Source: Saccoglossus kowalevskii (taxonomy: Eukaryota; Hemichordata; Enteropneusta; Harrimaniidae). From it: DNA of 31,300 nt. Shown here in pieces: positions 1,840 through 29,472 of this stretch (positions within the stretch are counted from its first letter, which is position 1; the number at the start of each line of letters is the position of its first letter). The stretch covers positions 1,950,981 to 1,982,280 of the forward strand of contig NW_003119425.1 of assembly GCF_000003605.2 (NCBI RefSeq), written 5' to 3'. The translations under genes and the position numbers were made by a program. The notes under the pieces are model-generated. The model did no database searches. It saw only the letters and a list, made by a program, of their open reading frames with translations, and was not told the origin of the DNA.

Positions 1840-1860
1840 ATTTGAAAGATAAAAATATTC

Positions 1861-6393: not shown

Positions 6394-9300
6394 ATGGAGA
6401 AAACTTCCGATAAAACGTGTGACACTGTCGAACAAATGCCTGATTTCTCTATGAATATGGAAGCTAGTCGCCTGGCATCTTTCAAAGAATGGCCGTTCGA
6501 TTCAGATTGCCAATGCACTCCAAAGAAGGTAGATTTTTTAAATCACAGCAGTCTACAACTGTTTTTTGTATCTTAACCTTTTTTATTTAATAAGGAAAGA
6601 GTTCCTTAGGGTCCCTCACCCCTAACCCCTCCAAATAATTATAAGTGACCAAAGAGGGGTATATACAATTGAAATGAAGGAGGGGTACTTGAGGGTCAGG
6701 GTTAGGATTAGATTTATGGGTGAGTGGCCCTAAGGAGCGATTTATAAATTAAATTATATTTTACATCTACTACAATGAACGGCATAATTGCGTGAAATTA
6801 GTTTGGAACGGTCGGTCCGTTTGATTGATTATGCGTTTGTCGGTCGGTATAACTGTAATAACAAACTGGCTACATTTTAAAAACAATCAGCGACGAAAAG
6901 GCGGAGGTTAATGAGACAAACCGTTTTACTCAAAGGTGTGGTAACTGTGATCTCATTTGTGCCGAAGAAACCCGTAATGTGACACGTTCGTATAAAAACA
7001 AGATTTTGATGGTAACGGTTCGTCAATTTTCGAAATATACCGATAACTAAATCCTGTAATAACCTGGAGCTGTCTAGCACCCTGGCCTGGCAACCCAGTC
7101 TGGCACCCATTTGAGTTCAGGAAGTGAAAGTTTCTCTGAACTCGCGTTGAGCGTGTACAGTCATCATTGTTGTGAAAAACATTTGTGTGTGTGCAATAGT
7201 CCGGGAAATTTTGTTTTAACAAAATAGAAAGGTGTTTAGAGCGACTACCGTTGTCTTTAATCAGCTTCGAAAATTTTCCATATTCTATATACTCTGCCAT
7301 CGAGGAAATTACACTAGCTGACACTAGATCATTCTTCAGTGCAACGGGATATCTGTTCGTTTAGCTCAGAAACTGTACAAAACTGCCCTTTTTAGGGCCA
7401 CCACATCTTCCAGAAAGAGTTATACCGTGTTTTAACGAGGGTAACAGTTTGATTTAGCTATGGGTCTGTAGCTCTTTTTTGTGTCGGCGTTTAGTCTTTG
7501 TGGTGGTTTTTTAGTTTAATAATAGTGTCATCAAATTTGTTGTTTTCAGACATTAGGATTTTTATCGACACAGAAGAGCTATGCCCCCTATAAACTAGCC
7601 TAACACAAATGTGCGTCGCCAATACAACATTTACCGTCACCGATTTATATTACGTGCAGTGGACGGTTGGGCGTTATGTTTGCTACAATGTATTTGTTTA
7701 TCATAATTGTCTACTCTACAAACCAAAACATAACCGTTTACAAAGCCTGTCGCCGACACTGGGACACGTTTCGATCTAACTAATTTCACGCAATTGTGAT
7801 GTTTGTTGTATCATATATTTCTTCCTATCAGCATCCAATGACATCACTATGCAAATTAGGACGCAGAGTAAAATATCAATAATTATTACTACCTTATAGT
7901 ATACTAAAATATATTTGGATATTTAGAGTACTAGCGAATTCCAACTTATGGTCCGGTTAGACTTAAAATACACCACAAATATTCACTTTTGAGATATAAT
8001 TTTTGGTATGTGTTGGTTCCTGGATATCTAAGCTTCGTCGTCCTGTACTTCATTTAGTAATTCGAACTTCCCAGATTGCGTAAAGGGGGAGAGTTTCGCG
8101 ATTTTGACATCGAAAATGCCTTTGCTTCATTATTTGCTGAGGGACGACCGCTCAGATATGTGCTCTGTAAATTGCAGCACATGGACCTAAAAACGCTAGG
8201 TAATCAAACAAAAATGACGTTGTACTAAAGTCCAAAAAGTACGTTCAAGGTCTTCATTTTTTTCGTAGCATAAAAACGATTTACTCCCTCGCTTATTGTG
8301 ACACCCTCAAATCAACTGATTTCCATTCCCCTCAAGAGTCAAAATGGTATGTGCCTCCATTTTACGACACGACTGAAAAAAGTCTTTTTTGCTTGACGTG
8401 TTCATTTGCCTTCAATTACGTTTCAGTGACTGTCACTGTCGCATTCTGAGTCTTGTCGATAACATTTTGGTTCAAATCCACGTAGCTATCGGCGAACATT
8501 CAAGAAATCTTTCATTTCTTTGTCAACTAACAAGCCGGAAATTAAATTAGCATAACAATGTGTTCGAAGGTTGTTGCCATTTTATTCGACAGCTTTCCAC
8601 ACTAGTGCCACACCACAGACAACTAAAACATTTAAACCTTTGTTGGGAAATTCACGTGTAAATTGCGTTTTACAGTCCCTCAAGTTTGTTCCAAAGACTG
8701 CAGTCGCACCAGAGATAACCACAACATTGATTCGTTTCATTAGCTGACTTTTTTTAACTATTCTGACGTGTTCTGGACTGTATCATGGAGCTATAAATTA
8801 GCTCCATGGCTGTATATAACAGTTAGACACTGACAAGTAAGTAGGTTGGTACAAATGTACTAGTAAACAGCCCGGAACATAGTCAATATAGGAATCTGAA
8901 TCAGTTCGGCCCTGAAAATAGCGTCATCGCACAGTATTCCATTAATGAATGAAGTTTACATAACAATTTTATGCCTACAAATCATCCTATAATTATTGAC
9001 AAGTTGTTACTACCTTATACTAAAACAAGCCGGTAGGCTGGTTGGCCATCGGCTCCGCTAAAAAAAACAAACATGTTTTCGGCTGTTGCCACGGTAGGCA
9101 CCGGACACCGTATACAAAGTTCGCCAAAAAAACACTCAGTTTTTAGAAGTCACTTTATTTTATTGCTAGGACGTATTCTGCTGTTAAATTTGTTATTTCC
9201 AACCGTTTTGCAATAGTATTTTCTAGATTGAAGGCAGCATTAACAGTTCATTCAAAGTTGCGTTGGGATTACGTTGATACAGTGTAACAATGTCGGCGCT

Positions 9301-12300
9301 GGTGATCTCTTACCGGTGTGCAGGCAACATAGCCAAAATAAAAAGCATGACCATTTAAACACTGCTATTACAAAACTGGTAATAGATAATAAATTTGGGG
9401 CAAAAGTATTCCAATTAGTGGCGGTACGACCTGCCTGTCAAGTATGATCAAAATCAGCCAAGCCAAAAAAATCACAGAAGAGTTAAAAAACAATTCTTGG
9501 TGAACTGTAACCCCAACTTTGGGGTCAAATTTCTCGGTAATGAAAAAAGATACGAAAAATTCAAATAGTAGTTTTGTGCCCACACTCAAGCTGAGTAGAA
9601 TGAGCTATGTCTGAGGAGTTTTATCCTGAATTTGTAGGAGAAGATACATTTGGGACGAAGCTAATCAAAAATCATTTTTTTTTTTGCTGTTGCTTTAGAA
9701 ATACAGTATTTCTATCAGTACAGTAGCAATAAAAGTATAATAAATAAGTATACATAGTGTAAATGTATACATTCCTTTATTTCATTGTTGAGACTGAGTT
9801 ATACAGTTTGTTACGAACTACAATTTATCCATATTGGAAAACGATTATAATTTACAATATTCAACTATCTTTTGCAACACCAATAAGATCATAATGGTAA
9901 TGTTTATTGGTCTTTGAAACTAGAGGCATTATCAGAGCATGGGTCTTATTTTGGAACTCCTGCTAGGATGGTATTCCCAGAATAGTGCCAGTTGTTAATT
10001 AAAGAAACATAAAACTTTAATTCTCAACAAGGATGAAAGGACCAGTTACTGGGACAAGGCCCTACTCCCCGCGAAACCCTACAGATACGAAACCCAATTA
10101 CCGCGAAAGCCGCGAAGCCGAACTACTGCTCCTCCCACAGATTAACAGGAGATTATCTCCAATGCGTTCATACGGTCATATGGCTGAAAACGATGTTGGT
10201 GTCATGCTTGTGTTCTTTCTTGACATGGCATGATGCTTTTGAGCTGGGAGAAAAAAAAGAAACAGTCACGATCGAGTTTGAGCATGGAGGTAGAAAAGAC
10301 AAGGAACTGGTGTTATGAATTAGGTACTAGTATGGAGATATAAACTGTTTATACCTCCATGGTACTAGTATAAACAGGAAACACGGCAGCTAAAATGTGT
10401 TACAGCCTATTCGCTTAAGTTATTGTTCAACTGTTATGATATGTGTGAATCTATCAATCTAAACCTACTAGAAACATAGCGTGACCACTTCTATGATTGT
10501 TATCTCTGGTGTCTTTAAACAGTTTCTTCAATTTTCATTGGATCTGTTCAGTCCTTCTTTCAAATTTTTGTTGCATAATTTTGTAAGCAATTTTTCCCGT
10601 TGACCTGTCAATCTATCACAGTATTTATTTACTCTGCCAAAATAAATATTATGGCGTGTACCTCTTTGTCAAATCGGAAATTGTGTGAAGTTACGAACGA
10701 TGTTGTCTCCACCATAATTGAAATGAGAGGTTACCGGGGTACTTGAAGAAGACGATTGAGGGCGTAATTTGGGTTCTGATAGTTGGGCCCTGTGTATACA
10801 CAGTCGAGGGCCATGTTGGGGCTCAACCCTATCGGAGCTCAAACTAGTTCGAGCCGGCTCGAGCAGAACGCGTATACATGTCCATTTTTGCTGGCTTGAG
10901 CCGTAGGGCTCCGATAAAATGCAGTCGTGTGAATGTAGCAATAGTGCCACGACTCAAGAGCCTTTTACGTAAATTTGGTGTTTCAACATCAAATACTACA
11001 GCAGTGGCTGCTATTGGGTCTAGATGTGACAATGTCGGAACATTGCCTCCGATAAAGTGCATGCTCGGCTAAGTGCCCATCTCCTTCAAAATGCTTAATT
11101 TGACTGTCTAATCATAAAACTTCGTCTTTTATATGATACAGCGGATATCGACCACCCTGAATATGTTGTGAATGTGTAGACCACAGTAACTGTTCGTAAA
11201 CTACACTTCGACAAAGACTAGTTAATAAAAGTGAAAATTGACAATGCCCTGTTAATAAAAGTGAAAATTGCTAGTTACCAGTTTTTTGAAAAAATCATGT
11301 CGTTTTTTCGCTGAAATCTATTCCAACAGATTGTACAATGTGCATCAACATTGATAATTCACTTCCGCACTGCATTACCAGAAAGTCTTGGGGAATTTCC
11401 CGAGAATTACAGCATTCTGATTGGTTAATAACAGACTTGACCCATTAGGTCAAATTGTGCAAAAATTTGTCATGGCGGAAAGTGCTTTTCATCGAGAGTT
11501 TGCGTACGATCCAAAACATTTGACAATGAACATAATAATGAAGATTTTGACTTCAAATGTGTTTCCTCGTAAATTCAGGTGGTACGTAATTAATATTGTA
11601 ATAAAATGTGCATATTTTTTTGTGACCACTACTGTTTCTTCGTTCAATAACAATGCAAATAATTTCGTAATTTTATATCCTTCAGAGACGGTATATCTCC
11701 CCCAGTCTTTCGCATAGTCAATCAACATTGTCATGTGCACCCTTTTCCGAGTGAGTGTTCGGGTATGAGCCAACCCCTAAATAATTACAATTTTCTGAGT
11801 AAATGTCTTGCGGGATCAAGTGTGTTTCAAAAGTCATCGGCACGAGAATAGGCACTGATCCACCGATCACAGGTTCTGTTTTTGGTTTTCGGAAAAAAAA
11901 ACACCATTCGTGTAATCCTTTAGTTGAAATCAAGAATCGCTCTTGCATTCAACGTACCGGGTAAGAGCGTTTTTGTACAGTTGATATTGTTGTGTGAACG
12001 GAATACGACAGAGTGAACAATGGCGCTACGTGTCACGTGATCAAAACTGGTTGCTAAGGACGTAAAGCTTGGCCACACAAGATTTTGCAGTGAGCGGAAT
12101 ATGGCTTATTGTCATCAGTGTATTTACATAAATATAGCAGAAAAATAATTCAAGATGAATAATTTCTTGTCATGTTCTGTTCTAGATGGCTGCAGCTGGT
12201 TTCTTTCATTGTCCTACTGATCAAGAACCAGATCTCGCCAAATGCTTTATGTGCTTCAAAGAATTGGATGGATGGGAACCAGATGATGATCCATGGTAAA

Positions 12301-14546
12301 GTGTCCTCTATTTTTACCTGGCTGCTTTGGTAAATGAAAGTTGCTTAAAACCCAACAGTCAGTGACTCCATCATGGCTTATTCTTGGAGTGTCCATTGCG
12401 TTGACAATTACATGTACTGTACTTCCCCAATTATATGCTCCTCCCTGAGTACATGTATAAGCCCACCCCTCTATTTTAGACATTTAATGAGTTGAAGGCA
12501 TCCCCGATTATAGGCCCAGAGTGTTTTTACTGAGCATCAATAACATTTATTAAATTATGCATGTAAAAAGTGTGTTTCATTGCATAAAAATTGTGCTTGA
12601 TAGAGTGCATGGCAAATGAACGCAACATGGTTCTATTCTGTTATTTACTAAGGATGAACCCTGATGTTGCAATACTGAAGTAATCCTTATGTCTTTGAAT
12701 GGTAGCTTTCGAAACAACAAAAATGTGACCATCAAGTCGTGAAACCTGGTCATTGGACATTGTTTTACTTTTCCAAATAATCATGCCCATTGAGACTATC
12801 GTGAATGGGTTGTGAACGAGTAAACTATACTTTGAAGTGATCTGTTGGCGACCATGAAATGTGTTTAAATACTTCCTACACATTCAGTTCACCTTTCGAA
12901 AATTGTGATTCACCAATTGTTAGAGGAAAAAAATCGCTGTAGTTTCGTTGAAATAACAGTTTGTATTTGAACATCATGGTAATTCACTTCCGCATTGCGT
13001 TAAAAAAAATAACATTGTCAACAATCAAAAAATTTCATCAGTATGACACAGCATTTTGATTGTTAATGAAAGACTTGTTAGGTCAAAGGACGTTGTTTCA
13101 GGGCAAATCATGCTGAAAAACATCATGGCAGAAATTGCTTTGTATCGAGAGTTTGCGTATGATCGAAAACATGGCACAACAAGGATAATGATAAAGATCT
13201 TGCCTTTGACGGTTTTCCCCAAAACCCTACCCATTTTTACACTGTAAATTTAGACGGTATGTAAATTGTATTGTAATAAGATGTGTGTATTTTTATAAAC
13301 ATGTTTATTTTTTCATTGACTTATTCTTACAGGGAAGAACACTTATCGCACTCAGGTCAATGCCCATTTTTATCAAAGAAAAAGAAAGAAGATGATTTAA
13401 CAATGGCAGAGTTTTTAAAACTTGAATCTTCAAGACAAACAAACAGATTAGTAAGTATAAATTGTTTTTTTATATCCTGGTGCTTTACTTTCAGTCAGCC
13501 CAAATTTAATCCAACTCATTTTCATTTATTTGTCTGTTTTCTGTTCAGCGGATTTAGGCTGTGTGGACAGACCTTGCTTTTCAGTTATTTATGGATTGAC
13601 CTCTGTGTGTGCGCGTGTCCGGAACTATATTTGATTCTAAATGGCCTAATGGTGGCCATTTTTTTGCAAAAAAAATAAAGCATTTCTGGCATTCTGGAAC
13701 TAGATCTTTCGTCCTTTATGGATGGATTTAGTTGAAATTTGGTACATACATTGGACTCTATGCCCGTCAATTTGTTCTCTAGATTGAATTAAGAGCAATA
13801 TCTTTCTCAATATGGATAAGTACTTGTTTGACTATCAGATACATGTTGACTGAATATCAATCATTTTAATGTAAAAAAATCATCATAATCAAGCATCATC
13901 TTCTGGATCCATACTTCTGACATGTTTATGTTCAAAGTATGTTACTATACACAAAACTATATATCTTAAATTTGATAACTTACTGGGAATGTGCCATGCA
14001 TGCCTTGTTTTATAAGTATCTCAGGCAGTTCTTGCCTATAGTATTTATGATTTTGTCTTTTGGCGGTAAAATTTTCTCATGTTATCAACAAAATAGTAAT
14101 GAAAATAGTTTTGCATTGTTATCGCAAATAAACTTCAAATACAAAATTGATGGACAGCCCAAAGCATCATATATATTCATACAGCTAATCATATATTCTG
14201 CGATTTACCATTAAATATTGTGCATAACAGTCCCAAAACACCAAAACCATATTTGCTTTTAAAATAAGTAAAATTTTTCTAAGCCACATTATACCCAATT
14301 TTTATTTGAAGTGTGCTTCATTTGAAAATATTATCTGTGTACAGTTGCAATGAATGAAGTCATAACTATGTTATACATGTATCAGTATTTTGGAAGAGTC
14401 AATAAATTATAAAAATATCACATGACATTAAATGGTTAACCTTTACATGTTTCATTCTCTTACAGATGAAAATAGTTGAAACGAAAATCAAGGAATTCAA
14501 GCAACAAGCTACAACGGTCAGGGAACAACTGGAACTCCTGGCATAG
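6394..14546 (+). CDS. BIRC5: Survivin, single-BIR inhibitor-of-apoptosis protein (chromosomal passenger complex)
   Basis: Four coding exons: 6394-6528, 12186-12295, 13333-13450 and 14466-14546, all GT-AG, with phases 0, 2, 0. They join into one frame of 147 residues plus TAG (human survivin has 142). Residues 25-95 form the BIR domain ([11 protein letters not shown] ... CTPKK ... [31 protein letters not shown]). The zinc ligands C65, C68, H85 and C92 have exactly the human spacing. T42 in TPKK corresponds to human T34, the CDK1 site, and keeps a full S/T-P-x-K/R consensus. T127 aligns with human T117, the Aurora B site. The C-terminal exon ([14 protein letters not shown]...) is the long helix that pairs with borealin and INCENP. 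Known role: centromere and midzone targeting of Aurora B in mitosis and cytokinesis. The start codon has a good context (ACAATGG). Intron 1 is 5.7 kb and carries several mobile elements. The gene is convergent with CCDC96. Confidence 0.95.
6603..6736. mobile_element. MITE-like element with TCCTTAGGG ends
   Basis: TCCTTAGGGTCCCTCACCCC at the left end and the reverse complement of the right end (TCCTTAGGGCCACTCACCC) match over about 23 bp with few mismatches, enclosing 134 bp with no coding capacity. This is typical of a small non-autonomous DNA transposon. No target duplication could be defined. Confidence 0.6.
7454..7600. mobile_element. Decayed inverted-repeat (MITE-like) element
   Basis: The left arm (TAGCTATGGGTCTGTAGCTC, then a T-run and GTGTCGG) and the reverse complement of the right arm (TAGTTTATAGGGGGCATAGC, then TCTTCTGTGTCGA) align over about 35 bp with gaps. 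The ends are too diverged for a family call. Confidence 0.4.
8784..8808. repeat. Perfect 10-bp inverted repeat, 5-base loop
   Basis: CATGGAGCTA, then TAAAT, then TAGCTCCATG forms a perfect hairpin inside BIRC5 intron 1. A similar but interrupted ATGGAG...CTCCAT hairpin occurs at 10325-10370, so the two may be relics of one element family. Confidence 0.7.
10325..10370. repeat. Imperfect inverted repeat with TACTAGTA ends
   Basis: TACTAGTATGGAGATATAAA on the left pairs with TTTATACCTCCA..TACTAGTA on the right, with one small gap. The outer TACTAGTA is itself palindromic. No coding content. Confidence 0.6.
11265..11665 (+). repeat. Duplicated promoter-like segment, copy 1 (BIRC5 intron 1)
   Basis: Shares extended direct similarity with 12900-13310. 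Matching blocks in order are: AAAAAATC...TTTCGCTGAAAT, TTCACTTCCGCACTGC, TGATTGGTTAATAACAGACTTG (an inverted CCAAT box), a TAGGTCAAA block, then CATGGCGGAAAGTGCTTT leading into a short open frame. That frame starts at 11472 and reads [16 protein letters not shown]. It ends near a good splice donor (G|GTACGTAAT, about 11583). Copy 2 has a donor at the homologous position. Nucleotide changes between the copies are not clearly biased to silent positions, so coding function is doubtful. Confidence 0.55.
12900..13310 (+). repeat. Duplicated promoter-like segment, copy 2 (BIRC5 intron 2)
   Basis: Homologous to 11265-11665, offset about 1653 bp at the shared ATG (11472 and 13125). The frame here reads [16 protein letters not shown] but runs into TAA before the homologous donor (G|GTATGTAAAT, about 13258), after a short insertion. 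The two copies bracket BIRC5 exon 2, and this copy ends just upstream of the exon 3 acceptor. This suggests a local duplication or two insertions of one repeat. Confidence 0.55.
13560..13800 (+). repeat. Diverged core-repeat element in BIRC5 intron 3
   Basis: AAATTTGGTACATACATT near 13735 is an 18-base identity with the core unit near 31154, embedded in further similarity (TATGGATGGATTTAGTTG compared with TATGCATGGACAGATTTTG). AATGGCCTAATGGTGGCCATTTTTTTG near 13640 corresponds to the ATGGCCGACTGGNGGCCAT motif of the same family. The GTGTGTGCGCGTGTCCGG segment near 13604 parallels the family's microsatellite-like portion. Confidence 0.6.
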
Positions 14547-15621
14547 TGTTTTGAACTGTTAGTTCTTTCTGGTATAGTGTATTGTTAGTCTGACATAGTG
14601 TACTGTTGAGCAATATGGGCAAGTGTGCAAACATCAAAAAAAAAATAGGCTGGCACACTACACCATCATTTGTTCACATTTTTGTCTGTTTGACCAATCT
14701 CTTACACAGATAAGCTCATTATCTATTGTGAAAACGTTCTTATGCTGTTGTTTGTGCTGTCTCCCTTGAACCAGTACAACACATAAAAAACTGCCTAAAA
14801 TTACATCAAAAATCTATTTCCAATAGCTGATAGTAGTTTTCAGAGGATGATATAAAATAATACACAAAGACTTGTCATGCTAAACATTGCCACAGTACCT
14901 ACCTAGACTGGCTGAAAACTGACATATATTCTACAAAACTCCCTAGACCAAGACTAGCCATTAATTATATTTCACCCTCTGTAATCCAAGTCTGAATTTG
15001 CACTAGATAGACCTAACACTACGAAATTGAATACGTGCAACATAATTGATTAATGTGGTGGCTGTATGGTTGGCTGCACACTTTCATACATGACAATAGT
15101 CCTATATGAGAATAGCGCAGTGTTCAGTCAAATGGTTTTATTGTAAAGAATTATGAGTATTTTTTTACTTTACTCTGAAAATACCCATAAATCTTTACGA
15201 TAGAAGTTTGGCTGACATGATGTTACTTTCAAAATGGCCTATTGTATACCTATACATAATATACTTACTAATTGAAATCTAGTGTAGAAATTGCCAGTGC
15301 AAGCAGGCTTTTAAAAAAATTGTACTGATAGAGGGCACTGCCACTTGAATCTCCAAACTTACACCACTTGTATTTTATTTTTAATATTAAAGTTGTTTGT
15401 ATATACACTGTCTGTAATTTCTTTCTATGATGATGGTTAATAGAATGCTGTGCATACTGTCTTCTATATTTTTTGGCTAATTTATTAGTTTTACATTTTA
15501 TCAACAATTCGAACTTGTGTAACTATTCAGTGTCTGTGTAAATTTTTTAATTTTTTAACCAGCTCAAACCTTTTTGTAGCTAACCAGTGTATTGTGGAAT
15601 CCTTTTTTTTAATTGTAGATA

Positions 15622-15627
15622 AATAAA
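15622..15627 (+). terminator. Candidate polyadenylation signal of BIRC5
   Basis: AATAAA within GATAAATAAAAGTTTACT, giving a 3' UTR of about 1.1 kb. Other AATAAA motifs occur downstream (about 15725), so the used site is not fixed by sequence alone. Confidence 0.35.
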
Positions 15628-15919
15628 AGTTTACTATTAAAATTAATCCGTGATTGAAATAGATATTTTTTCCACAGACTGCTAGATATGAAAGAAACAT
15701 CAAATGTCATACAGTGTGTGCCAAAATAAACTGACTATGAAAATAGCCATCTTCCTATCAGTTTTTCTTGGAATATTCCAGTATCCCTGCTGGGTGTTAA
15801 AAATCATGTACAGAATCAGTCCCGCTAACAAATTACAGAGGGACTGACAGAATACATTTTTTTTCGTTTTTACCCACCTCCCTTACATGCTTTTTTTTTT
15901 TTGAGGATGAAAATTTAAA

Positions 15920-16052
15920 TTAAAGCGGGGGTGTTGTCACCTACGCATGCGTCAGATGGCCATAGCGTGTCATTGTTTACAAACAAGCATCTACACATGA
16001 GCCTTTGCGTTTTTAGCGCGTGTTTTAGCAGGTGACGACCCTCTCGCTTTAA
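15920..16052. mobile_element. 125-bp TTAA-flanked inverted-repeat element (piggyBac-type MITE)
   Basis: TTAA at 15920-15923 and 16049-16052 flank an element that begins AGCGGGGGTGTTGTCACCT. Its right end, reversed, reads AGCGAGAGGGTCGTCACCT (15 of 19 matching). The interior is relatively rich in CpG (GCATGCGTCA, TTTTTAGCGCGTG). Exact TTAA on both sides plus inverted ends is the signature of piggyBac-superfamily non-autonomous elements. It carries no coding sequence. Confidence 0.65.
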
Positions 16053-16264
16053 GGTTGTAGTAGATATGACTGAATATCATGAGACATCTTCCATTTTAGA
16101 ATACCAACTGTTCTGAATCATGGTGCCTATGGAGGATTGATTTTGTGAAAACTTTACAGGTTGTAGTAGATATGACTGAATATAACGAGACATCTTCCAT
16201 TTTAGAATACCAACTGTTCTGAATCATGGTGCCTATGGAGGATTGATTTTGTGAAAACTTTACA
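16053..16264. repeat. Tandem duplication, 2 x 106 bp
   Basis: GGTTGTAGTAGATATGACTG begins at 16053 and again at 16159. The two 106-bp copies are nearly identical and differ mainly at ATATCATGAG versus ATATAACGAG. The first copy starts at the base after the right TTAA of the neighbouring element. The high identity suggests a recent event. Confidence 0.92.
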
Positions 16265-17173
16265 ATCAGATTTTGAGTGAAGGAATTGCGTGAAATATTA
16301 CTAAAAGGGAAAATTTGTGCATAATAGGATACTCTACACTTCAACACAATTACATGTACATGTACGTGATCACAAGCCTACAATTTAATTTAAAATTCAA
16401 ACACTTTCATCAAATGCTTTCAAGTATTTTCAAAGACTGCTAAGAATATTTCAAGGAGTTGTTTTCATTATCAGTTTATTTTGTAATCCACTGTACCTGG
16501 TAATCTAGAACAGGGCTTGAGCTTGACTGAGGCATTAAAAAATGCAGATTTTTCTATATACATTTTTGGCCATGAAACAGTGTTCTCTCAACTTGAGCCC
16601 TGCGACATATGAATTTGGCTGTTTTACAATTAGCATAAAGCCAAAGATTTACAAAAATAAACATAACAGCCGGAACAATTGGTCACATGACCAAAAGTAA
16701 TACATGTATTAAAATTGAATAGACTGACCCAGACTGCCAAAATTAAAATTGGACAGTACCCATGATCAGAAGTACGCAGGTATTAGCCTAGTCACTATAG
16801 GATGTGTGATTATAGTCCAGTCAGTTTCATATTGACTGCAAACGCTGAATCAATCGTGGGGGGGAGGTCTGGAAAATATACCGATACTAAACTGTCATAT
16901 AGAAATATTTCACAAGCACATAAGAATCATAGTTGGCAGCAGCTGGAACTTACGACATTACAAATATAGTCTTAACAACAATCACACATACTACGTAATT
17001 ATTTTTTCACAAAGAATACAAAATTTTAATTTTAAGATGTCTTAATATATACATACAGTAAATTTTATGTTATAATTACAATTCTGGTAGTGTTGAGATG
17101 AAGGGCATGAAATAAAGTTGGAGTAACATAGGATTTAAACAATAGTCTTATATACAAATTAATTCTAATAGAG

Positions 17174-20100
17174 TTAGTTTCTTGCAGCCCTAGCATGTTC
17201 AATTTTCTTTCTGAATCCATTAGTATTGAGTACAAGTTCAGCATGTCGTCTTTTCAAGGCTTCAAGATTCTGTTTGAGTTCATCGCCCTCATCTTTGCGT
17301 TCTTCAAAATCTCTCAATAATGACTCGTTACCAAGAAGTCCAGACTTCTGTCGAAGTCTGTGGTTGTCAATTCTCAACATATCTCTGGCTTTTTTGGTTC
17401 TCGAAAGGATGTCACGTTTCTGTTGGGGAATGAGAAACACAGATTGGATTCAAGATATATGCTTGCAGTACTTAAACAGTTAAACTGACAACAATAAACA
17501 GGGATATACCGGAATGAATGTCACTGCTTTTAATTCCATTCGCTGGTGCACACTATCTTTAACATCCGACCAACTACTGTAAAATACTTTGCAAATATTT
17601 TTGCAAGAATTAAATTTCACTGAAAAGACGAGGTGTTTTGTATGGAATTTTTTCCACTGATTTTTGACTAGTTGAATGTAAAATATAGGAAGAAAAGGTA
17701 AATTCGATGGATTTCATTTTTAATCGACCATTGTGAAAATGGAGTATTTTACAGTACCTACCGGTATGTAAGAAAATACCTTAGGCACTGCTGTACTCAT
17801 CCACATTAAACACATCACATAACCATGGGAGTCAAGGGTAGGCTAATTCTGTGGATGTGTATAGCAGTGCCTTAGTGTTTTCATCTGTGCACAAATTTGC
17901 ACCTCATGAATATTACCAGTAATGGTAACTCAAACAACACAAAGGACACAAGATTGAATTTTTGTTATGGTCACTTTACCCTTCCAGGGCCACTACACTA
18001 TTTCGTATTTTGGCGAATTTTGTCAATTTAAAAAACAACAACAATAAGACTTGTGAGCAAGTTTATCTTTATATTTATATTTATCACATGTATCATGCAG
18101 TAGCAGTGGCATAAAGCCATGTAATATTTTTCATATTACACTCCCTCTGGAAAATCTGATTGGTCTTTGCATGCAATTTTACATTGTGACATCACAAACT
18201 ACATGTTGTCTGGTAAAATGCCAAAACATAGATCCTTTAATGATGAATTATTTTGGTGAAAACTGTTTGAAATATGTTCACTCCAAATGTTACTCACTCA
18301 CTACATACCGATATTTTCATGAATTCACCAATAGGTGTTTTCTTTTTAAACCATATTTGAGGATTTTGGAGTTTCCAATTCTCCCAACCTAGCAGTGGCA
18401 ATGCACTGGATTTGTTTCCTCCACTGAATCGTCACTACTGCTTGCCAATTTACAGTGAGATGCCTGAAGGCCGCTGGTAAAGCTTTCCCAAAATTTAGTT
18501 AAAATTTTGCCAATATGTCTATAACAGTAAATACATTGATGGTTCCAAAAACGAATTTTTTGTGTCATAACAGCAAATAAATTTGTCTCAACACATGTTC
18601 AAGGAACTGTCGCTGCTTTATGCTAATGAATAGAACTTGCTAAGGTGCTTAGGACATGCAAACACAAATAACGATTCAATTTTAGTTTCTGCTGGCCAAA
18701 CAGCTGAAAATACATACATGTGATAAACAGAATATCAACATTTTTGACCGTGTAATATCGTACATGTATTTACTTAACTCAAATACTAATTTTCCTTTGC
18801 TCCTTGCAAAAAGCTGTATACTACTGCACTTGTTTAATAAATATATTAAACAGTCACTCATTGAATATTCTCTATGTATGTGGCAATGAAATTTATGTAA
18901 TTTATGTATAAGCTAACGTTTTACAATTTACCTGTGCTACTAAAGCTTCCACATCTTTTAACTGGACCTTTTGGACTTGGTTCTCTGCTTGTACGTACTG
19001 TAGCTTCTCTTTCAAGTGAGTCAACACCTGCACTGTGCTTGTTATTTTCTTCCTAAGTTTGAGAAGCTCCTGCAGAGTGAACAAGTCATTGTCAATGAAA
19101 CGGTCATTTTGGCTGATTTTGTAAGGACACAAATCTGTCAAGGCATGTCCGTTGCATAAAACCAAAATGGTTACCAGCTGGACATTTTGAATCAAATCAC
19201 AAAACAAACTGTGGACTATTCATACCAAGTTTGAATAAAATTAACCAAGGCATGATTTCGTGATTTGATTCTTTTTACAACAAAAATGGCCACCAGTCGG
19301 TTAAATTTCATGAATAATAATAAAAAAAGCACAATAGCAAAATTGGTCGTCAGTTCATCACAGTATTTGCCTACGTTTGAGCTTTCAGATGATGTATAGG
19401 TTGTAGCATACTTAGTATTAAAGTGAAAAATGTCTGAATTACAGCTCAATTTTTTACCATGTTTCACCCCTGTTAGTGATAACATCAAAAGTTCAATGTA
19501 GGATAAAAAACTTAATTAAAAAACTTTTTTCCCAAACCCCCTACCACCCACTGAAACTTAATTAATAAATATTGACCATGGCGTCCGACTACATTCACCA
19601 TTAAATACAAATTGATAATCAGACAGTAGTATGGCTTAGCAGTTTGTTGTCAGGTGGGTGTAAAAAGACTTTACATTCGGACCAAACCATTTTCTCGTCT
19701 TGGATGTTTTTTTTCATTTTCTGTTATTTTTGTCCATGGTTGGATAGAAAAAAACAAAAAACTACAAATACTCCAAGATTTTTTTGACTTCTTTAAAAAT
19801 TAAAATCGTTTTTGTAGGATGGAAACTTTTTGAGGTCAAAACCCCCACCCCCCAAACTAAAGCAAATAAGTTTTTTATCCAACATTGATCTTTTGACGTC
19901 GTCCCTTAATACCTTAACAAGGTTATGCAGAATAGTTGAGTGCGTAAACGTAGACCCCAATAAACACTGAAAAGATGTACTTACCTCATTCCTCTCCTCT
20001 ATCTTTTCATTATATGTTTGGTTTTCAATTTTTAACTGTTCAAAATCTATAAGATGTAATCCTTCTGCTAGTTCTTCTTTTGCTTTCAATTGTTGTTCTC

Positions 20101-23100
20101 TCTTTTTCAGTCTGTTTTTCAGTTTTATGTTTTCTAATCTTACTTGAACTACTTCCAATTCTTTCTTCATCTCTAGACCCAAGAATTGTTCAATATCCTA
20201 CAAATTTAAAAACACATTTGAAATGTTCAATAACCAACACAGTATTCAACCAACAATACACAGAACACTATAAAGATATAGTTGTGCTGTGATGCAGATT
20301 AACGTCCCCGCATTATGGCTAATTTGCATATAAATGGTAATTAATTAACATACAAATATGTCACAATTCTTATTTTAATAAAATTGAAAGGTGCCCTAGG
20401 GGCACATTTGACAGAAAAACAGATAATTTTGATGTAATTATCTTGTTGCACATCTGAAAAACTCAAAATTGATTAACCCCCAAAAAATAATACATAGCAT
20501 TTTTTTTGTAAATTTACCATAAACAACAACAAAAACTTTCACAAACAGCACTAGTCACAGTGACTTGTACAATGTACTACATAGGGCTTAATAATAAGCA
20601 GGGTTTTATTTACACTTATTTTGCTGGCTAATTATTAAAATATGCTAAATCGAAACCCAGTGAGTGTGTGAAGTTAACATTAGACCATATTCCGCTCACT
20701 AAAAGATCTCATGTGCATGAAATCAAACCTAAAAACAGAACAAGCAAAAGTAATAGCAAAACAAACACCAATATCAATTTTGATGCAGTTAGAGTATCTC
20801 AACGTCATATTCTCTTCTGAAAGAATGGCATTTACATATTGAACTACCAGTATACAAAAAAAATTTGATTTTTACGACAGACATTCAGTAGTGCCTTTCA
20901 TGCATCATCAATGTGAGATCTCACAGTGAACGAAAATTTACCTATTGAATGTATTGTTTCTTTCACAATACATTGAATTTAAAACCTAGTGAATATCTGC
21001 AAATGCAGTAAAATTATTTAATTAACCCCAGTGAATGTCTCCTCCCTCTACAGTGTTCCATGTGAATTCCTTAAATTATCAACGTTTGAATATTCCAGGA
21101 AATACAGTATGTTTATGCCTTATGCTCACTTTTTGTGGAATTGGTTTCCCGGATCGACTGTTTACAGAGGCCACAGCAACTTGTTTCTTGAACTCCTGGA
21201 AGTCTTTGTTTTCTTCAGTGACAAGTTCTTGTTTCTGTTGTCTTTTATCTTTTAATTCATCAATTTGCTGTTGATAGTCCATCCTCTGATGACTGTCTTT
21301 GTCTCGCAATTCCTCAAGATTTGCTAAAAATTGTGATAATTTAGTACTAAATATTAATAAAATCATTAATTTTTCCAGCAACATCACACTGGTGTAACCC
21401 TAATAATAATTGGGTAATTTAGTTATTGTGACCGCAAGAAAGAATGAAACAGCAATATTGCATTCTGAGACACTGTTTTTGTGAATGATATATACCGGTA
21501 TAGCCATGGATTCCATTACATTTTGTGTAATGTTGCTATTCCGTTAGCAAAACAGTGTCACATACATCAATATTGCCATTCCATTCTTTCTTGTGTTCAC
21601 TGTATATGCACAATGTATATGAACCTCAATGATAAATGAAAATATCTACCTGTATATATAAGTGAAATAGCTCTGCTGTTTTGGAAATCTACAACTCAGT
21701 GGTTGAAATCAGAAAAAGCCAAAAAAAACAGTTTTTTTTATAAAAAAAAAGGGGAGTGTGATTTTTAAATTTAAAAAAAATTTGAATTATATGGAGCCAT
21801 TTTTTAACTTTGCATAACACTCTATATACCGGTAAGTACCCTCCCCTGGAAATTCAATTTGCAAAAAAATGACAATACGTTCATCTAACTTAGGTAATAA
21901 AAAACATGTCATCTTACCCATATATTTAAGATATCTCTGTTCTTGGTCAGTGACATTCTTATCCATATCTTGTCTCTGGTCATCAGACTTTTTTTTGTGA
22001 AAATACTCAGCCAGTTTGTGCTGTAGCTGGAAGTTTTGGTTAGCCATTTGCTCTCTCTCTGACATCAAACTCTGATGAAAAATTAATTTCAAAATGGTTA
22101 TAATATACACGTGTGTTACACACAGAAAAAACACAAAGACTTACAGCTTATACTGTGGAATACTTTATTTTCGCTGGAATTAATTTTCGCTGAAAAGGCT
22201 TTTTGGGCGTTTTGCTTGGAATTTATTTTCACTGATTTTTGATGAGATTAATGTGAAATATAGGAAAAAAAGTATATTCGCTGGATTTTATTTTCACGGA
22301 ATCATCCCTTCAGCGAAAATAGCGAAAATAAATTCCAAGCGAAATAAAAGTATTCTACAGTATACAAAACTCGTGTTTATGATGTCATATATAGTCAGTC
22401 AGCATTTCATATTATTCAGTACACCATTACATGTAAATAAAATAAATGTCTCAGTTCACTAAATCTACATTTCTTATGTTGGCCAAGATGCTGAAAATAG
22501 ATTTTAGAAAATCTACATATTCTTCAGAAATTGTTTTCAATTCCAACTACATGTACATGATTTTCAACACAATCTTACAAGGGTTTAATTTTTGTCTGAG
22601 AAAGGTATGTCACATCCTAGCATCAACCCCTATGAAAGTATGTTCATGTCTCGAGCACAGGCATTCATACAGTACATCAGGAATTTGTTTGCAGGGAAAT
22701 ACCTGGTATTCTTCTATGAGTTCTTCTCTGGAGTACATTGGTTCCTCATCTTCTTCTTCTTCTTCTTCTTCTTCTTCTGCTTCATAATAGTACTCATCTT
22801 CTTCTTGTACAGGAGATGCTAAAAAGTCATGAAATGTACAGGTCATTAAAATTTGACAAATTAGAAGTTAATTTTTGAAAATCCATAAATACTATTTCAA
22901 CTTGAAGGGTTACATGTACAGCTATAAAGTTGTAAGGTAGACACTGAAATCTCAGGGTATGTATAACAAAATAAAGGAAGACAGTTTTGTACATGTATAT
23001 GATGAAGATCAAATCATTCTTGATGACAAGATGATCATCTGACAATGCAAAATCTTAATTCACAATACAAAACAACAGCTACCTCTGCGTTCTGGTGTTC

Positions 23101-26100
23101 CAGCATCTAATGGTTCTGGTGAACCTCTTGGGGTGCCTTCCCTTGATAGTGGTTCCATGACTGCAACAGTTGGTGTCTCTGGTCGTTCTCCTTCAGCAAA
23201 TGTATCACTTTGTGGAACTGGAGAGCCCTCTTTTTGTTCTTCTTTCACTTCACCTTCTTCATCTTCAAGAATAGTTTCTACAGCTTGGCCTCCTTCTTGA
23301 TCTGCTTCTGGTTTCTCTTCGCCATCCACTACGTCTGGTTTCTCCTCTCCTTCAGTTGCACCTTCCGCACCCTCAGCTTTTTCACCTGCTTCCTTTTCGA
23401 CATCTCCTTCTTCAGGTTTTTCTCCCTCTCCCTCTGTTTTTTCGGGTTCTTTGCTTTCTTCATCATCAACTTTTTCTCCTTCTGCAGCAGGTTCTCCTGC
23501 AATATCAGTTTTAATGTCACACAATTATTTTAGTGAAATTGATTCATTTTGAACTGCTTGGTTAGGAAATAAACCATAAATGAGACAGCTTATCCCCATT
23601 TCTAGTGTTGTATAATATGAAATCACCATGAAATTATTAATCAGTTTTACCTTCAGTTGGTTTGTCTTGTTCTCCTTCCCCATCCTCAGCAGGCGCTTCA
23701 GCACCATCAGCAGGGGGTTCTCCTCCAGCTTCAGCGTTTGGTTCCTCAGCTGCTACAGCATCTTCAGCTGCAGGAGCTGCTTCCCCCTCAGTTTCTTGAC
23801 CATCTTTTTCAGCTGGTGCGACATCAGCTGTGTCCTCCACTACAGGAGCTTCATCAGCTACAATTGATAAAAAAACTAGTTTTATGAAGGTACACTTCTG
23901 TTCAGCTAATTTAAGAATATAATTCTGAAATGTTGTTATTTATATATTGCAGGAAATGGTATAAATGAAAAGTATTTTCAATTTTAAAACAATAAAAAAA
24001 AAGTCAACATCTATGGTAAAAATAAGTCACATGATCCAGTATACAGTAAATCCAATTTTGGTTCATATACCACTTCTATTGGAGAAGTGTTTGTAATAGG
24101 ATAAATGGTATATAACCAGTATATATTAGTAGTATCTACCGATATGACATATTATTCCCCAGTATTCCTAGTTATATCATATCTAGTTGTATGGTCATTA
24201 TACAGGAAGTCAATCATCCTCAATGATGTCATGCTCATTCGGAATACCAGGCAATTATATATACCCCGGTAATTTTTACCCTGGTTAATTTGCCATATAC
24301 AGAGTCAAACGTACAGCCAGGCGTTGAATAAACACCAGCAAGCAATTGACATACTGAAGGAAATATACATACATGTAGTGGCTGGTTGCTCAGCAACATC
24401 ATTTTCTGTACTTTCCTCTGCAGCAGGAGGAGGAGTCTCTTCTGTTGCTTCAGCTGGTGGTGCCACCTCCTCAGCTTCTATTGGTTGTTCATTATTTGTT
24501 TCTGGAGCTGCTGCCTGTAACACAAAAATTGTAAACCCTGAAGTGTGTAAGAGAAAATATTTACCTACAAAATTCCAGCCATAAACTATACTCACAAAAT
24601 ATCAGTGGATACACTCACTCTACAATTCAACAACATTGATTTTCCAAGACAGGAAAAGATTTTTCCCCAAATATATATTTGAACATGATATCAGCAAAAG
24701 AGGATATGAAGTATTATAATTTTCTCTATTTTAGAATAATAGAACATGTATAAATATATTAGTATTCAGGGAATTTTTTAAACTGACAAGGGAACAGCGC
24801 CCTCATGCCATGGCCATGTGCCCCCTTACCATTGGGAGCAGATCCTCTGGCAACCATAAAATTCTGATTGACTAAGGATCACATGTGGCCACAGTCTTCA
24901 ACTGTGACCTGTCAGATAGTTATTTTGGCCTCAAGAAATCCATTGAATGCTCCATTTTAACTTAGAATTATCAAAAACTACACACTCTGGTAGGGAGAAC
25001 CACATAGTGGCGCTGCTGAATTGCAGTGCTCCCTCTTGCAGTTTTTTTTCTAGAAAAACCTCTGATATTCATACATGTATAATAGTATTCTTCAAAACAA
25101 GGTCCCAAATAAAGTCAGAAGTAAACTAAAAATTCTAATTTCATTGAAGAAACCAACAACTCAAAGTATGCACAAAGACAGTACAGCGGGAGTATATTGA
25201 CCGTCTTGCAGTTTGCGAAAGAGAAGAAATTGAAAATTGATTTTATTTCCTCCTTGTGTGTATATTTTACCATAATTTTCGCACTATGTAATTTCTAGGA
25301 TTTAATTATAAAATTACTGACGTTCTACAATGATCGACTGTGTATGTTTATCATACCAGAAGACTGAAATTTAGGAGTGAAATTTGTATATGATAAATTA
25401 TGTGGAATATTTCACCTTGCAATGTAATACATTATGGGCCATACACTTTGTTGTTTTACGTTTAAATTTGTATGTCAGCAATTTCAAAGGACAATTTTTG
25501 TAACAAATCAATTTAAAGGCACAATTTTTATGAAAATTTTAAAATTGACAGTAACTTTTTTTTATATTTTCTGGGCTGAATATAAAAAGCGAGCATTACA
25601 GAAAGCCACTGGAGGAGTGAGCTTTATAGATAACATGTGTATGTATAGAAGAGTGTGGAAGATACCTATATACCCTAAGAGATTGAAAATGGTGCACTTC
25701 TGTGGTCAATGGGTGCCGCCATTTTGTTTATAAGAAAATTACGAGAAGCAAAATCAGCTGCTCATTTATGATAAAACATTGTCAGAATGTTGTTTATTAA
25801 TAATGCAATCTGTTTCTTGCAACGGATTTAAAATAGTTCAATTTTGAATAGTGCTTTGAGTCATTTTGATCAACGGCTAAACATCTAAACGGCTAAATCT
25901 TGAATACCACCCACCAATGAACTAACTTGATTTCTGCAGTTCATGCACTTAGTTTGGGGTGGGGTGGGTCACGGTGGATATGGTGCATTACTATTAACAA
26001 ATTAAATGAAAACTTATAACTTCAACAAATCTCCCCCATGATTTTAATGAGATAGTGGTCTGTGTGTCCCCCCCCCCATTACTATAAACAATTAAATGAA

Positions 26101-26480
26101 AACAAAATCGTTTTTAACTCTAAACTTTAACAAATCTCCCCCAAAATTTTAAAATTGGCACCAGTTATGTGAATCTGTATTGAACATCAAGCTCTGATAT
26201 ACTCTGATTATACACTGAGCTCGAGCTGTCTTTGAACCGATATTTAGAACAAGGGACGTAGAACTGTAAATGTCAACAGTCATATTATTTGGATCGGTGA
26301 GTGTTGACAGCAGCAATACTTTTATTGTGAGCAACAGACGAAATTCCGAATACAGAAATAGTACGACGAATAGTTATTTAACTATCGTTTGCGAAATAAA
26401 TTACAAATACAAGATGTATTTTTCGACAGAGCTCACAAATAATAACAAGGCAATAATATATTTACCTGATCGTCCGCCAT
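17174..26480 (-). CDS. CCDC96: Coiled-coil domain-containing protein 96, ciliary axoneme protein
   Basis: Ten coding exons, listed 5' to 3' on the minus strand: 26466-26480, 24373-24514, 23651-23857, 23083-23496, 22703-22818, 21918-22071, 21130-21323, 19985-20197, 18932-19069 and 17174-17419. All are GT-AG with matching phases, and they join to 1839 nt (612 residues plus TAA). Residues 1-298 are low-complexity and rich in Glu, Pro and Ala, with a run of nine Glu at about 274-282. Residues 299-612 are predicted coiled coil, including HLIDFEQLKIENQTYNEKIE, EELLKLRKKI and the conserved SLLRDFEERKDE segment. This C-terminal part is the CCDC96/CCDC113-type (DUF4201) domain. Human CCDC96 has 555 residues with the same acidic N-terminus plus coiled coil. 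In Tetrahymena, Ccdc96 with Ccdc113 forms an axonemal complex near radial spoke 3 and the dynein regulatory complex. The start, MADDQ, ends a 15-base coding exon head-to-head with TK1. Confidence 0.93.
17575..17756. mobile_element. MITE with TACTGTA(A/G)AATACTT ends, copy 1 (CCDC96 intron 9)
   Basis: The ends TACTGTAAAATACTTTGCAA and GAGTATTTTACAGTA are inverted, with TA at both outer edges (possible TA target duplication). The interior, including CACTGATTTTTGA and ATATAGGAAGAAAA, is homologous to the copy at 22151, so this is a genuine repeat family. About 180 bp, non-coding. Confidence 0.8.
17781..17874. mobile_element. 88-bp foldback MITE with TTA target duplication (PIF/Harbinger-type)
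   Basis: TTA at 17781-17783 and 17872-17874 flank GGCACTGCTGTACTCATCCA on the left. The right end, reversed, reads GGCACTGCTATACACATCCA. The arms are about 22 bp with two mismatches. A 3-bp TTA duplication and GG-starting ends fit PIF/Harbinger MITEs. It lies only about 25 bp from the MITE at 17575, in the same CCDC96 intron. Confidence 0.7.
19485..19896. mobile_element. 412-bp inverted-repeat element (CCDC96 intron 8)
   Basis: TCAAAAGTTCAATGTAGGAT (arm 19485-19514) and the reverse complement of 19867-19896 match at 28 of 30 positions. The interior is non-coding and contains C-rich/A-rich segments near both ends. It is a non-autonomous DNA transposon of unassigned family. Confidence 0.7.
21428..21600. 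mobile_element. 173-bp inverted-repeat MITE (CCDC96 intron 6)
   Basis: The left arm (CAAGAAAGAATGAAACAGCA, then ATATTG...GACACTGTTTT) and the reversed right arm (CAAGAAAGAATGGAATGGCA, then ATATTG...GACACTGTTTT) match over about 46 bp with a few differences. No coding capacity. The target duplication is not resolved. Confidence 0.7.
22151..22362. mobile_element. MITE with TACTGTA(A/G)AATACTT ends, copy 2 (CCDC96 intron 5)
   Basis: The left end TACTGTGGAATACTTTATTT (then TCGC) and the right end GCGAAATAAAAGTATTCTAC (then AGTA) are inverted, with TA at the edges. The interior TTTTCACTGATTTTTGATGA and GAAATATAGGAAAAAAAG parallel the copy at 17575. Internal GCGAAAATA repeats make it fold further on itself. 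Confidence 0.82.
25985..26142. repeat. Imperfect tandem duplication in CCDC96 intron 1
   Basis: CATTACTATTAACAAATTAA...CAACAAATCTCCCCC is repeated about 92 bp later as CATTACTATAAACAATTAAA...TAACAAATCTCCCCC, with a C10 run between the copies. No coding content. Confidence 0.75.
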
Positions 26481-26690
26481 GATGCTTTCCTTCCGTGTTG
26501 TCATGGTTTAACACGTGACCCAACGCAGTAGCGCGTCTCGTGAGATTACAGCGAGACTTTATTTTGCCGCGAAATTCGTATTCCGCGTCTATTCCTGATT
26601 GTGACCCTAGATCTGTGAGCTGTTGCGGCGGTCATCTTCATTTTTTCATCACTTTCTCGGATTTTCTGAGTGCATTTGATTTTTTACACG
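26481..26690. promoter_or_regulatory. Shared divergent promoter of CCDC96 and TK1
   Basis: Only about 210 bp separate the two start codons, and the interval is CpG-richer than its surroundings. Going rightwards it contains an RFX/X-box-like half site (GTTGTCATGGTTTAAC, 26497-26512, second half degenerate). Next come an E-box (CACGTG, 26512-26517), TCTCGTGAGA (26536-26545, one base from the TCTCGCGAGA promoter element) and the E2F palindrome at 26563. No TATA box is seen. An X-box would suit the ciliary gene and E2F the S-phase gene. Transcription start sites are not determined. Confidence 0.65.
26563..26574. promoter_or_regulatory. Palindromic E2F site
   Basis: TTTGCCGCGAAA fits the full E2F consensus TTTSSCGCSAAA at all 12 positions. 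It is 117 bp upstream of the TK1 start and 83 bp upstream of the CCDC96 start. TK1 is a classical G1/S E2F target in vertebrates, so the position is what one would expect for S-phase control. Confidence 0.7.
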
Positions 26691-29451
26691 ATGATGTCAT
26701 GCATAACGACTTCAGATGTGATATGTTCGTCCAAAAAGGGACAAATACAGGTAGGTCATTAGGATTTGTTGTCGATTTCTGGTGAAACGCACAAACATCT
26801 GCTCTTGATTCAGATTTCTGTGAACAGGAATAAGGATGAGGGGGTTTCCCGCTAAATGTAGAAGGGATTTAAAGCTGGTACCCCGCGATTTCTAAAAGTT
26901 TTCGAAATGCAAATATGATTACCCAATTTGTCCAAAGTATAGAGCGAATAGAATATTGTATTTCTTCTTGACGTGGTCACATAAATAATACACAATAATA
27001 AAAAAAAAAAATAGCGGGTTTCTTGCTTGCTAATTTGCAGGTCATTTTCAGACGTTATTTTCACTTAAAAATAAAGTCACTTGATGGATGAAAAATCAAA
27101 TAATTTGATAAGTACTATTCATAATTATTTTTTCTCGATTGAAAGTAGCGATCGTTGAAAGCAGAGAAAAAAAATAATAAGGAATGGACAAACTTTGGGT
27201 GGGGTGATGGCTGAAAAACTATGGAAATATTTTCTCCCTCTAGTTTTGTGCTAATATATTTTGTTATGCTCCAGTCAATGTCAACCCCCAACCCTCCCCA
27301 CCTCCAAGGGCAAGAAGGATAGGCAAATCCCCCTACATTTCCCCCACCGATCGCCACTGTCCGCTATGCTTTCTATCTGATACGCATACGTTGTTATCGA
27401 TGACGTGACATGAAACACTGCTATTACCCCACCTCCATGGTCACAGTTTGGCGGTGAACCTCGTCTAATGCCCCACATTTGTCCCGCATCGCCCGAGGTG
27501 GGAGGGGTCGGGTTGGCATTGACTGGAGCATTATTGATCCCTGCAGAATCATTTTTCCATTGCAATTTGTTTTTCAATGTTCCACCCTCCAAAGTTTTTA
27601 ATGGTCAACCAAATAAATAGTCAGATTAGTCTTGAGCCACTTTCTGTCATTGCAATATTTTGCGTATTGCGTGATAGGAGTAGTCCGGACGTCAAAAAAA
27701 TAAAACGATTTGATTTTGGACTTGAATTTCATTATTTTATTGCCAATGTTGGTCTTTAATTCGGGAATATTACATTGAGATACCCTTACTTTAATTTAAA
27801 TTAATTGAAGATAACTTAGGTTTATTTTTCACCTGTGATAATGATGAAACCATAGAAATGAACCAACAATCCAAGCTTAGATCACCGCCCCTTCATAAAT
27901 GGACTGTTCTTATACTTATACTGCGAATATTGCTATCACCTGTTCTATTCATTGTTATGGTAATTAAGCTCTATTGTTCATCCAAGCTAAAAAAAAACAC
28001 TATGATCAAGACGGCCAAAAATAATGAAAATGCCTGGTACTACTTTCACACAATTAGTGAAAAATATGTATTGTATTTGCTCTATTAGAAGCACATACAA
28101 ACCAAAAATTGTATAATACATCATTAACATATATATTAACATGTATGTATGAAATGGTATGTTACCAATACTGTTTTTTCATCCCAACAGCAACATGTAG
28201 TTGTTGAGCACCTTGGCAAATAGCTTCCTTGACCACCATTCCCCAAACAAAATAAATGTCCTTGGCTTTTAAGCGAACTACACATCCCTTTACATTCTGA
28301 ATTAACACCAATTATTTTACACATTATTATTTTCAGGTTATATTTGGACCAATGTTTTCAGGTAAAACGTAAGTACATACCTAAACATTCTAAACCAATA
28401 ACATAATTAACATTTTATGTTGCCAACAGAAATTTCAGCTTTCTTGGTACTGAAATACAAATTAATAATTATTATTATGAATAGTGGTTGATTAATATTT
28501 GAGAATAAAATTCTCATATTACTTGGCTTTCAGTGTGTGGTCCTTACAGTGAAAACCAACAAGATTTTAACTGAGATTTATAATTGAAATTTAGGCAGAG
28601 AAAAACGAAACTGATTGGGGAGCCAATATGGCACCGCCTCATTACCTCAGTCACGTGGTTTGTGACATAAGGGGAAGATCTTGTGGTCATAGGCTTCATT
28701 GTCAATGAAAAAATCTCATTAATGTCAGTGATGTGTTTTTTCAAATTTTTTTCTTCTCAATTTAGGACTGAATTAATCCGAAGAATAAAACGTTTTCAAA
28801 TTGCAAATCATAGTTGCCTTATTGTAAAGTATGCAAATGATGATAGATACGATAAGAATGGAATAGCGACACATGATAGGTAAGACCATACTTACTGTAA
28901 ATCTCAAAATGTTTATTGATATCAATTTTGTATTACACTTTGAAGATTCTTTGCAAATGTCATTGGTGAATTTTACAGTGCGGTCAGGAAAAGACGCGTT
29001 CTCATTTCTCAGTTTTCTTTGCAAAATTGCCAGCTGCGTTTTTTTCGAATTTGGCACTTTGAATTCCAACAAACCAATGCTCCTGGACTCTCGAGGCATA
29101 TGCGAAATTAGAAGACGAAACTGTTAATAACCATCAGCTAACAAAGAACAAAATGGCTGCCATATAACCATGTGATTTGTGTTAAAATTAATTCTGTGAC
29201 TCATTATTGTTTTGCTCATTTTTAAATCTACAAAGAATAAGTGTCAAAATAGTTTAGACATACCAAGAAATGAGAGTAACAATTTTAAGAAATGTACGAG
29301 AATAAAATACAATACAGCTGGAAAATAAATCTTTAATAAATCCTTTTAAATTAACAGGGAAGTGAAAGCAGCAGTGTCTGCAACAGAGCTATGTCCACTG
29401 AGGAAAACTGCCATGAAATATGATGTTATAGGAATTGACGAAGGACAGTTT
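26691..29451 (+). CDS. TK1: Thymidine kinase, cytosolic (TK1 type), 5' part
   Basis: Four exons: 26691-26750, 28337-28368, 28766-28879 and 29358-29451, all GT-AG, with phases 0, 2, 2, 0 at their ends. Exon 1 encodes [20 protein letters not shown]. The next ATG (26694) gives MSCI, as in human TK1 (MSCINLP), so either ATG is possible. Exon 2 gives [10 protein letters not shown], and with exon 3 completes the P-loop [14 protein letters not shown] (human GKSTELMRR). Exon 3 continues with [20 protein letters not shown] and THDR. Exon 4 ends in VIGIDEGQF, with the catalytic Glu of the DEGQF motif. The enzyme phosphorylates thymidine to dTMP in the salvage pathway in the cytosol. The zinc-binding and lasso exons and the C-terminal degradation signals lie beyond the right edge; none were found in 29452-31300. 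Confidence 0.93.
26751..28336 (+). other. TK1 intron 1
   Basis: A 1.6-kb intron containing the inverted-repeat element at 27267. The open frame at 27858-28088 is hydrophobic, but it has no splice signals placing it in TK1 and I do not regard it as a gene. The rest is AT-rich and unremarkable. Confidence 0.6.
27264..27533. mobile_element. 264-bp inverted-repeat element in TK1 intron 1
   Basis: TGCTCCAGTCAATGTCAACC (from 27267) and the reversed right end TGCTCCAGTCAATGCCAACC (ending 27530) match with one difference in 20 and continue more loosely for about 45 bp through C-rich sequence. TTA flanks both sides (27264-27266 and 27531-27533), compatible with a 3-bp duplication of PIF/Harbinger type. 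The open frames inside are by-products of the C/G-rich arms. Confidence 0.75.
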
Positions 29452-29472
29452 GTAAGTATAACTGTTATTTTT

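Follow-up and report, generated by a model that had tools for sequence, protein, structure and literature searches.

In human, TK1 and AFMID make up one locus at 17q25.3 and run in opposite directions (PMC6538667), and TK1, AFMID and BIRC5 are among the genes co-altered with SOCS3, which fits their closeness (PMC9122507). In mouse, the L-threonine aldolase gene (Gly1) sits between Birc5 and Socs3, and both the mouse and the human genome have SYNGR2, BIRC5 and TK1 close to GLY1/THA1 (PMC555945); according to the title of a paper, human THA1 is a pseudogene. In the present study, we analyzed a stretch of 31,300 nucleotides (the window) from the hemichordate Saccoglossus kowalevskii (assembly GCF_000003605.2, contig NW_003119425.1, positions 1,950,981 to 1,982,280 of the forward strand), in which BIRC5 (survivin) and TK1 lie on either side of CCDC96 in the order and orientation BIRC5> <CCDC96 TK1>. 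With an L-threonine aldolase gene found beyond TK1 on the same contig, the locus has three members of the 17q25 neighbourhood of mammals (TK1, BIRC5 and threonine aldolase) inside about 42 kb, in an order that differs from that of mammals. It is quite likely that the window belongs to a rearranged form of an old animal neighbourhood of TK1, BIRC5 and L-threonine aldolase, which mammals have kept at 17q25.3 and which would have been inherited from a common ancestor.

The human order is <TK1 AFMID> BIRC5> ... <THA1P. Like the region at mammalian 17q25.3 and mouse chromosome 11E2 (TK1-AFMID-BIRC5-THA1-SOCS3), the hemichordate locus has TK1, BIRC5 and L-threonine aldolase close together, and TK1 is head-to-head with its neighbour. 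In contrast, the middle gene is CCDC96 here and AFMID there, BIRC5 is flipped, and threonine aldolase lies on the TK1 side here and on the BIRC5 side in mammals. A first-pass annotation of the window, made from the letters alone, had proposed that CCDC96 stands in the place of AFMID and that BIRC5 is inverted relative to human, and this layout agrees with our models. Experiments in mouse reportedly showed a bidirectional promoter shared by TK1 and AFMID; a search for an open-licence paper on the mouse kynurenine formamidase/thymidine kinase promoter found none. The features of the window on which the argument depends are as follows.

6394-14546, + strand: BIRC5 (survivin), complete; coding exons 6394-6528, 12186-12295, 13333-13450 and 14466-14546 (spliced model, Pfam BIR, PDB)
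26480-17174, - strand: CCDC96 (axonemal coiled-coil protein), complete, 10 coding exons, 612 amino acids; start codon 26480-26478, stop codon ending at 17174
26691-29451, + strand: TK1, first four coding exons, 26691-26750, 28337-28368, 28766-28879 and 29358-29451
26481-26690: interval of 210 bp between the start codons of CCDC96 (-) and TK1 (+), a probable bidirectional promoter
6303-6312: NRF1-type palindrome GCGCATGCGC, lying some 80 bp 5' of the start codon of BIRC5; a motif match with a putative function
14547-17173: tail-to-tail interval of BIRC5 and CCDC96, 2627 bp between the stop codons; no Pfam domain over the cut-off in six frames

The spliced models of BIRC5, CCDC96 and TK1 were built by hand from the sequence letters; their introns have GT-AG ends, their frames join, and all three genes stand where the first-pass annotation had placed them, with TK1 head-to-head with CCDC96 as it had claimed; its limits, 6394 and 29451, correspond to the beginning of BIRC5 and to where exon 4 of TK1 ends. 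The BIRC5 exons (135, 110, 118 and 81 bases) encode a product of 147 amino acids with a single BIR domain (Pfam, E 1.4e-23). The top PDB match of this product is survivin (E 2.5e-47, 128 residues aligned), with 164 bits against 103 for the best chain other than survivin, as judged from the best 60 of 82 matches. The TK1 exons (60, 32, 114 and 94 bases) give the first 100 residues, which match PF00265 (E 4e-25) and have human cytosolic TK1 as the top PDB match (1.5e-26), aligned from the start of TK1; exons after exon 4 were not found within the window. By these Pfam and PDB matches, the two genes are true BIRC5 and TK1 and not other members of their families. Exons 2 and 3 of human BIRC5 also have 110 and 118 bases, and exons 2 and 4 of human TK1 also 32 and 94, which would fit orthology. 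The product of CCDC96, which is acidic in its N-terminal half and coiled-coil in its C-terminal part, matches PF13870 (E 9.6e-45). Its C-terminal 314 residues scored 266 and 251 bits against CCDC96 chains in the PDB (5.1e-78) and 54 bits against the sister protein CCDC113 (2.2e-13), and on these scores CCDC113 was rejected as the identity of the middle gene. In cilia, the complex of Ccdc96 and Ccdc113 connects radial spoke 3, dynein g and the nexin link (PMC7987202). A CCDC96 query against collections of prokaryotic and viral sequences, as a search for contaminating animal contigs, gave 45 and 8 pattern-matching stretches, none of which was confirmed in either collection.

The pair of TK1 and BIRC5 was chosen because it had been noticed, and therefore a test chosen beforehand was wanted. 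From the report on the mouse and human genes (PMC555945), threonine aldolase (PF01212) was named as a test of the neighbourhood before the flanking sequence was seen. The flank was then covered over 44 kb, in four runs, of the 160 kb around the window. On the contig of the window, at about C1210:1997456-1999518 (- strand), we found the initial coding exons of a gene for L-threonine aldolase, with GT-AG joins; they match PF01212 (E 6.2e-27), and all eight of the matched PDB chains are L-threonine aldolases. The visible exons start about 17 kb past exon 4 of TK1 and point back at TK1, and about 42 kb separate the start of BIRC5 from the distal end of the reading frame for threonine aldolase. AFMID and SOCS3 were not seen within the 44 kb or in the stretches of the window scanned with Pfam.

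Ancient microsynteny of TK1 and BIRC5 had already been suggested by the first-pass annotation, and the predicted threonine aldolase nearby supports it for one genome compared with mammals. If gene order were random, a named pair would lie within two places of each other with a probability of 0.0002 in a genome of 20,000 genes and 0.005 in a scrambled chromosome of 833 genes; for at least two of six mammalian neighbours to lie no more than five genes away, the probabilities are 0.000005 and 0.002, respectively, where 833 genes stand for a scrambled ancestral chromosome. The model, including its pool sizes, the six mammalian neighbours and the distance of five genes, is our own assumption. It is conceivable, but in our view improbable, that the three genes merely shared one ancestral chromosome and met again here by chance after internal shuffling. 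Ancestral chromosomes can persist with scrambled internal order, and with a pool of 500-833 genes, two of six neighbours would fall within five genes with a probability of 0.2-0.5%, which genome-wide gives some such cases. However, threonine aldolase was predicted and not picked afterwards, and the probability in a random genome is about 5e-6.

Several further points weigh against inheritance of the linkage. In a survey of 49 animal genomes, 70 ancestral blocks of at least three genes had been retained in the vertebrate ancestor, fewer than the 110, 120 and 124 obtained with shuffled genomes; apparent blocks shared by vertebrates and invertebrates therefore need care. A comparison of two hemichordate genomes found no apparent conservation of microsynteny, which also suits a chance re-encounter. 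Order and orientation are not conserved, the locus here reading BIRC5> <CCDC96 TK1> ... <THA1, and the sequence between TK1 and threonine aldolase was seen in part. Like the ancient metazoan microsyntenic blocks described previously, the locus is a small group of unrelated genes near each other, for which a fixed order is not required; in contrast to those blocks, it is a case of one genome against mammals (PMC8851819).

With these points taken into account, we still favour inheritance of the linkage between TK1, BIRC5 and threonine aldolase, the order and orientation of which would later have been altered by small local inversions. Ancient metazoan microsyntenic blocks are reportedly also described in Irimia 2012. 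The linkage may have persisted through slow decay of local gene order, and the compact divergent unit of CCDC96 and TK1, which would be hard to break without damage to a promoter, may have helped. Since the third conserved gene encodes a metabolic enzyme, we prefer slow decay of gene order over a cell-cycle cluster as the reason. The first-pass annotation had offered function in S and M phase as the reason for the adjacency of TK1 and BIRC5; with a metabolic enzyme as the third gene and a ciliary gene in between, this suggestion did not find support.

We searched the assembly (572 Mb in 4830 contigs; the results apply to its searchable part) for further members of these families. The only TK match was that of the window, and the three other BIR matches are grouped on a single different contig. 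The lineage-specific paralogy that could have undone the comparison thus left no sign in the searchable genome, the single TK match standing alone and the other BIR matches being clustered elsewhere. Derivation of BIRC5 or TK1 from a paralogue or a retrocopy is also unlikely, since both genes bear introns and no second TK was found. An inhibitor-of-apoptosis-like gene at C1268:150185-150853 has two BIR matches in one frame of 411 codons, with a third match nearby. There were two Beta_elim_lyase matches, namely the threonine aldolase exon and a tryptophanase-like gene on another contig. The latter (C3229:133914-134978) is an uninterrupted frame of 408 codons (NF009709, 1.2e-158); its presence in an apparently animal assembly may be due to horizontal acquisition or contamination, both of which are possible. 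GrpE, a marker of the mammalian CCDC96 neighbourhood, gave no genome match, and as GrpE is an essential gene, its absence from the search carries no weight.

Local inversions aside, the proposed history includes turnover of the gene adjoining TK1, which is CCDC96 here and AFMID in mammals, with a short facing interval in both. The direction of this change is a separate question. The first-pass annotation had suggested reuse of the promoter by another neighbour, meaning that AFMID was the first to share the promoter of TK1 and that CCDC96 then moved in and took it over. TK1 does face different genes head-to-head in the two cases, but nothing shows AFMID to be the earlier partner or polarises the change, and AFMID was not located in the covered 44 kb or the scanned stretches of the window. 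Furthermore, divergent pairs account for 25% of adjacent genes in amphioxus and for 13% in mouse, and of 372 putatively ancestral divergent pairs most were lost in vertebrates (PMC6292497). With divergent pairs so common in amphioxus, no special reuse is needed, and we regard the sequence of events with AFMID first as doubtful. Given the frequency of divergent pairs and the losses in vertebrates, a change in the partner of TK1 is an expected kind of event. CCDC96 could equally be the ancestral partner, lost from this spot in mammals.

We tentatively consider it possible that TK1 and CCDC96 are an ancestral divergent pair, that the vertebrate line lost CCDC96 at this position and that AFMID became the neighbour, CCDC96 surviving perhaps as an intronless retrocopy beside TADA2B. 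The CCDC96 gene of the window has 10 exons, and the mapped interval that lists CCDC96 in mouse, like that in cattle, also lists TADA2B and GRPEL1. Against this, the word "intronless" did not appear in the three open-licence papers found on CCDC96 and TADA2B. Human CCDC96 is a single-exon gene that faces TADA2B; on this basis, the mammalian copy might have arisen as a retrocopy, and the window might then show the older arrangement, the reverse of the direction in the first-pass annotation. The full succession, in which an ancestral TK1-CCDC96 pair was broken, the intron-bearing CCDC96 of vertebrates was replaced by a retrocopy at another promoter, beside TADA2B, and AFMID took the vacated side and made the mammalian shared promoter a second-hand one, is a rather speculative proposal.

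The interval at 26481-26690 resembles a shared bidirectional promoter and probably is one. Its start codons lie 210 bp apart, within the limit of 1 kb used for divergent starts; its GC content is 0.45, and its observed-to-expected CpG ratio is 1.49, compared with 0.65 for the window. The interval contains one E2F-type TTTGCCGC at 26563, one CACGTG (the E-box palindrome) at 26512 and one ETS-type motif at 26496 (- strand). These motifs would suit an S-phase promoter but are no proof of one. Two observations count against the promoter assignment: the CpG count was matched by 1.3% of 210-bp windows, including two other places, and the E2F-type, CACGTG and ETS-type matches were each reached in 6-13% of shuffles, with twelve motif types tried in all. 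No CCAAT, CHR element or full RFX X-box match was found in the interval by the motif scan. A CDE/CHR and CCAAT combination as a shared cell-cycle code was accordingly rejected, there being none in the TK1 interval and the CHR-like match upstream of BIRC5 being attributable to chance (42% of shuffles). An RFX X-box serving CCDC96 was rejected likewise; the one full match lies upstream of BIRC5 instead. Like the bidirectional promoters of chordates, the interval is short and CpG-rich and separates a divergent pair of protein-coding genes; in contrast, it pairs a cell-cycle gene with a ciliary gene (PMC6292497). TK1, needed in S phase, and CCDC96, in ciliated cells, would require different control from one putative shared interval. 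Two places are denser in CpG, 5611-5910 and 30721-31020, with 17-20 CpG per 210 bases; the motif GTCCCCGTTCGGAC occurs within 30721-31020, and a near copy occurs around 29473.

Upstream of BIRC5, none of 2000 dinucleotide shuffles of the 201-bp stretch reached the match of the NRF1-type palindrome. A YY1-type site in the same region was reached in 0.4% of shuffles.

Both TK1 and BIRC5 are in wide use to mark cell division. Knockouts in mouse are complicated by the small distance between TK1 and AFMID, and native Afmid mRNA is missing from TK1-knockout mice (PMC6538667). If our reading is true, TK1, BIRC5 and threonine aldolase are old neighbours, and the promoter partner of TK1 is changeable and likely incidental. 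The locus offers a concrete block of three genes with an exchange of partner, and animal genomes that are already available can be used to date both. Local rearrangement within an ancient microsynteny is a known kind of case, and we regard this one as an ordinary but good example, new as far as the open-licence literature shows; no open-licence paper on linkage of BIRC5 and TK1 in invertebrates was found, subscription papers and bioRxiv being outside the search.

No Pfam family above the curated cut-off was found at 1-5000 and 14547-17173 (both strands) or at 29452-31300 (+ strand), which were the stretches scanned. Rfam and tRNA searches of the window gave no matches. About 60 kb to the left of the window, at C1210:1888646-1891150, we found exons of a eukaryotic-type uridine phosphorylase (TIGR01719, 1.9e-43, under the whole-protein cut-off, with only part of the protein given to the model), which is a further pyrimidine salvage gene on the contig of TK1. 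Retroelement-like reading frames, judged by eye, lie at C1210:1880918-1882100, also left of the window, with no Pfam family over the cut-off in the part scanned. Within the window, a 19-base unit is repeated in tandem about 48 times at positions 782-1687 (82-83% matches; listed under periods 38 and 57), while 103-484 hold a 162-base tandem repeat of 2.4 copies and 16047-16264 a 106-base tandem duplication with 97% matches.

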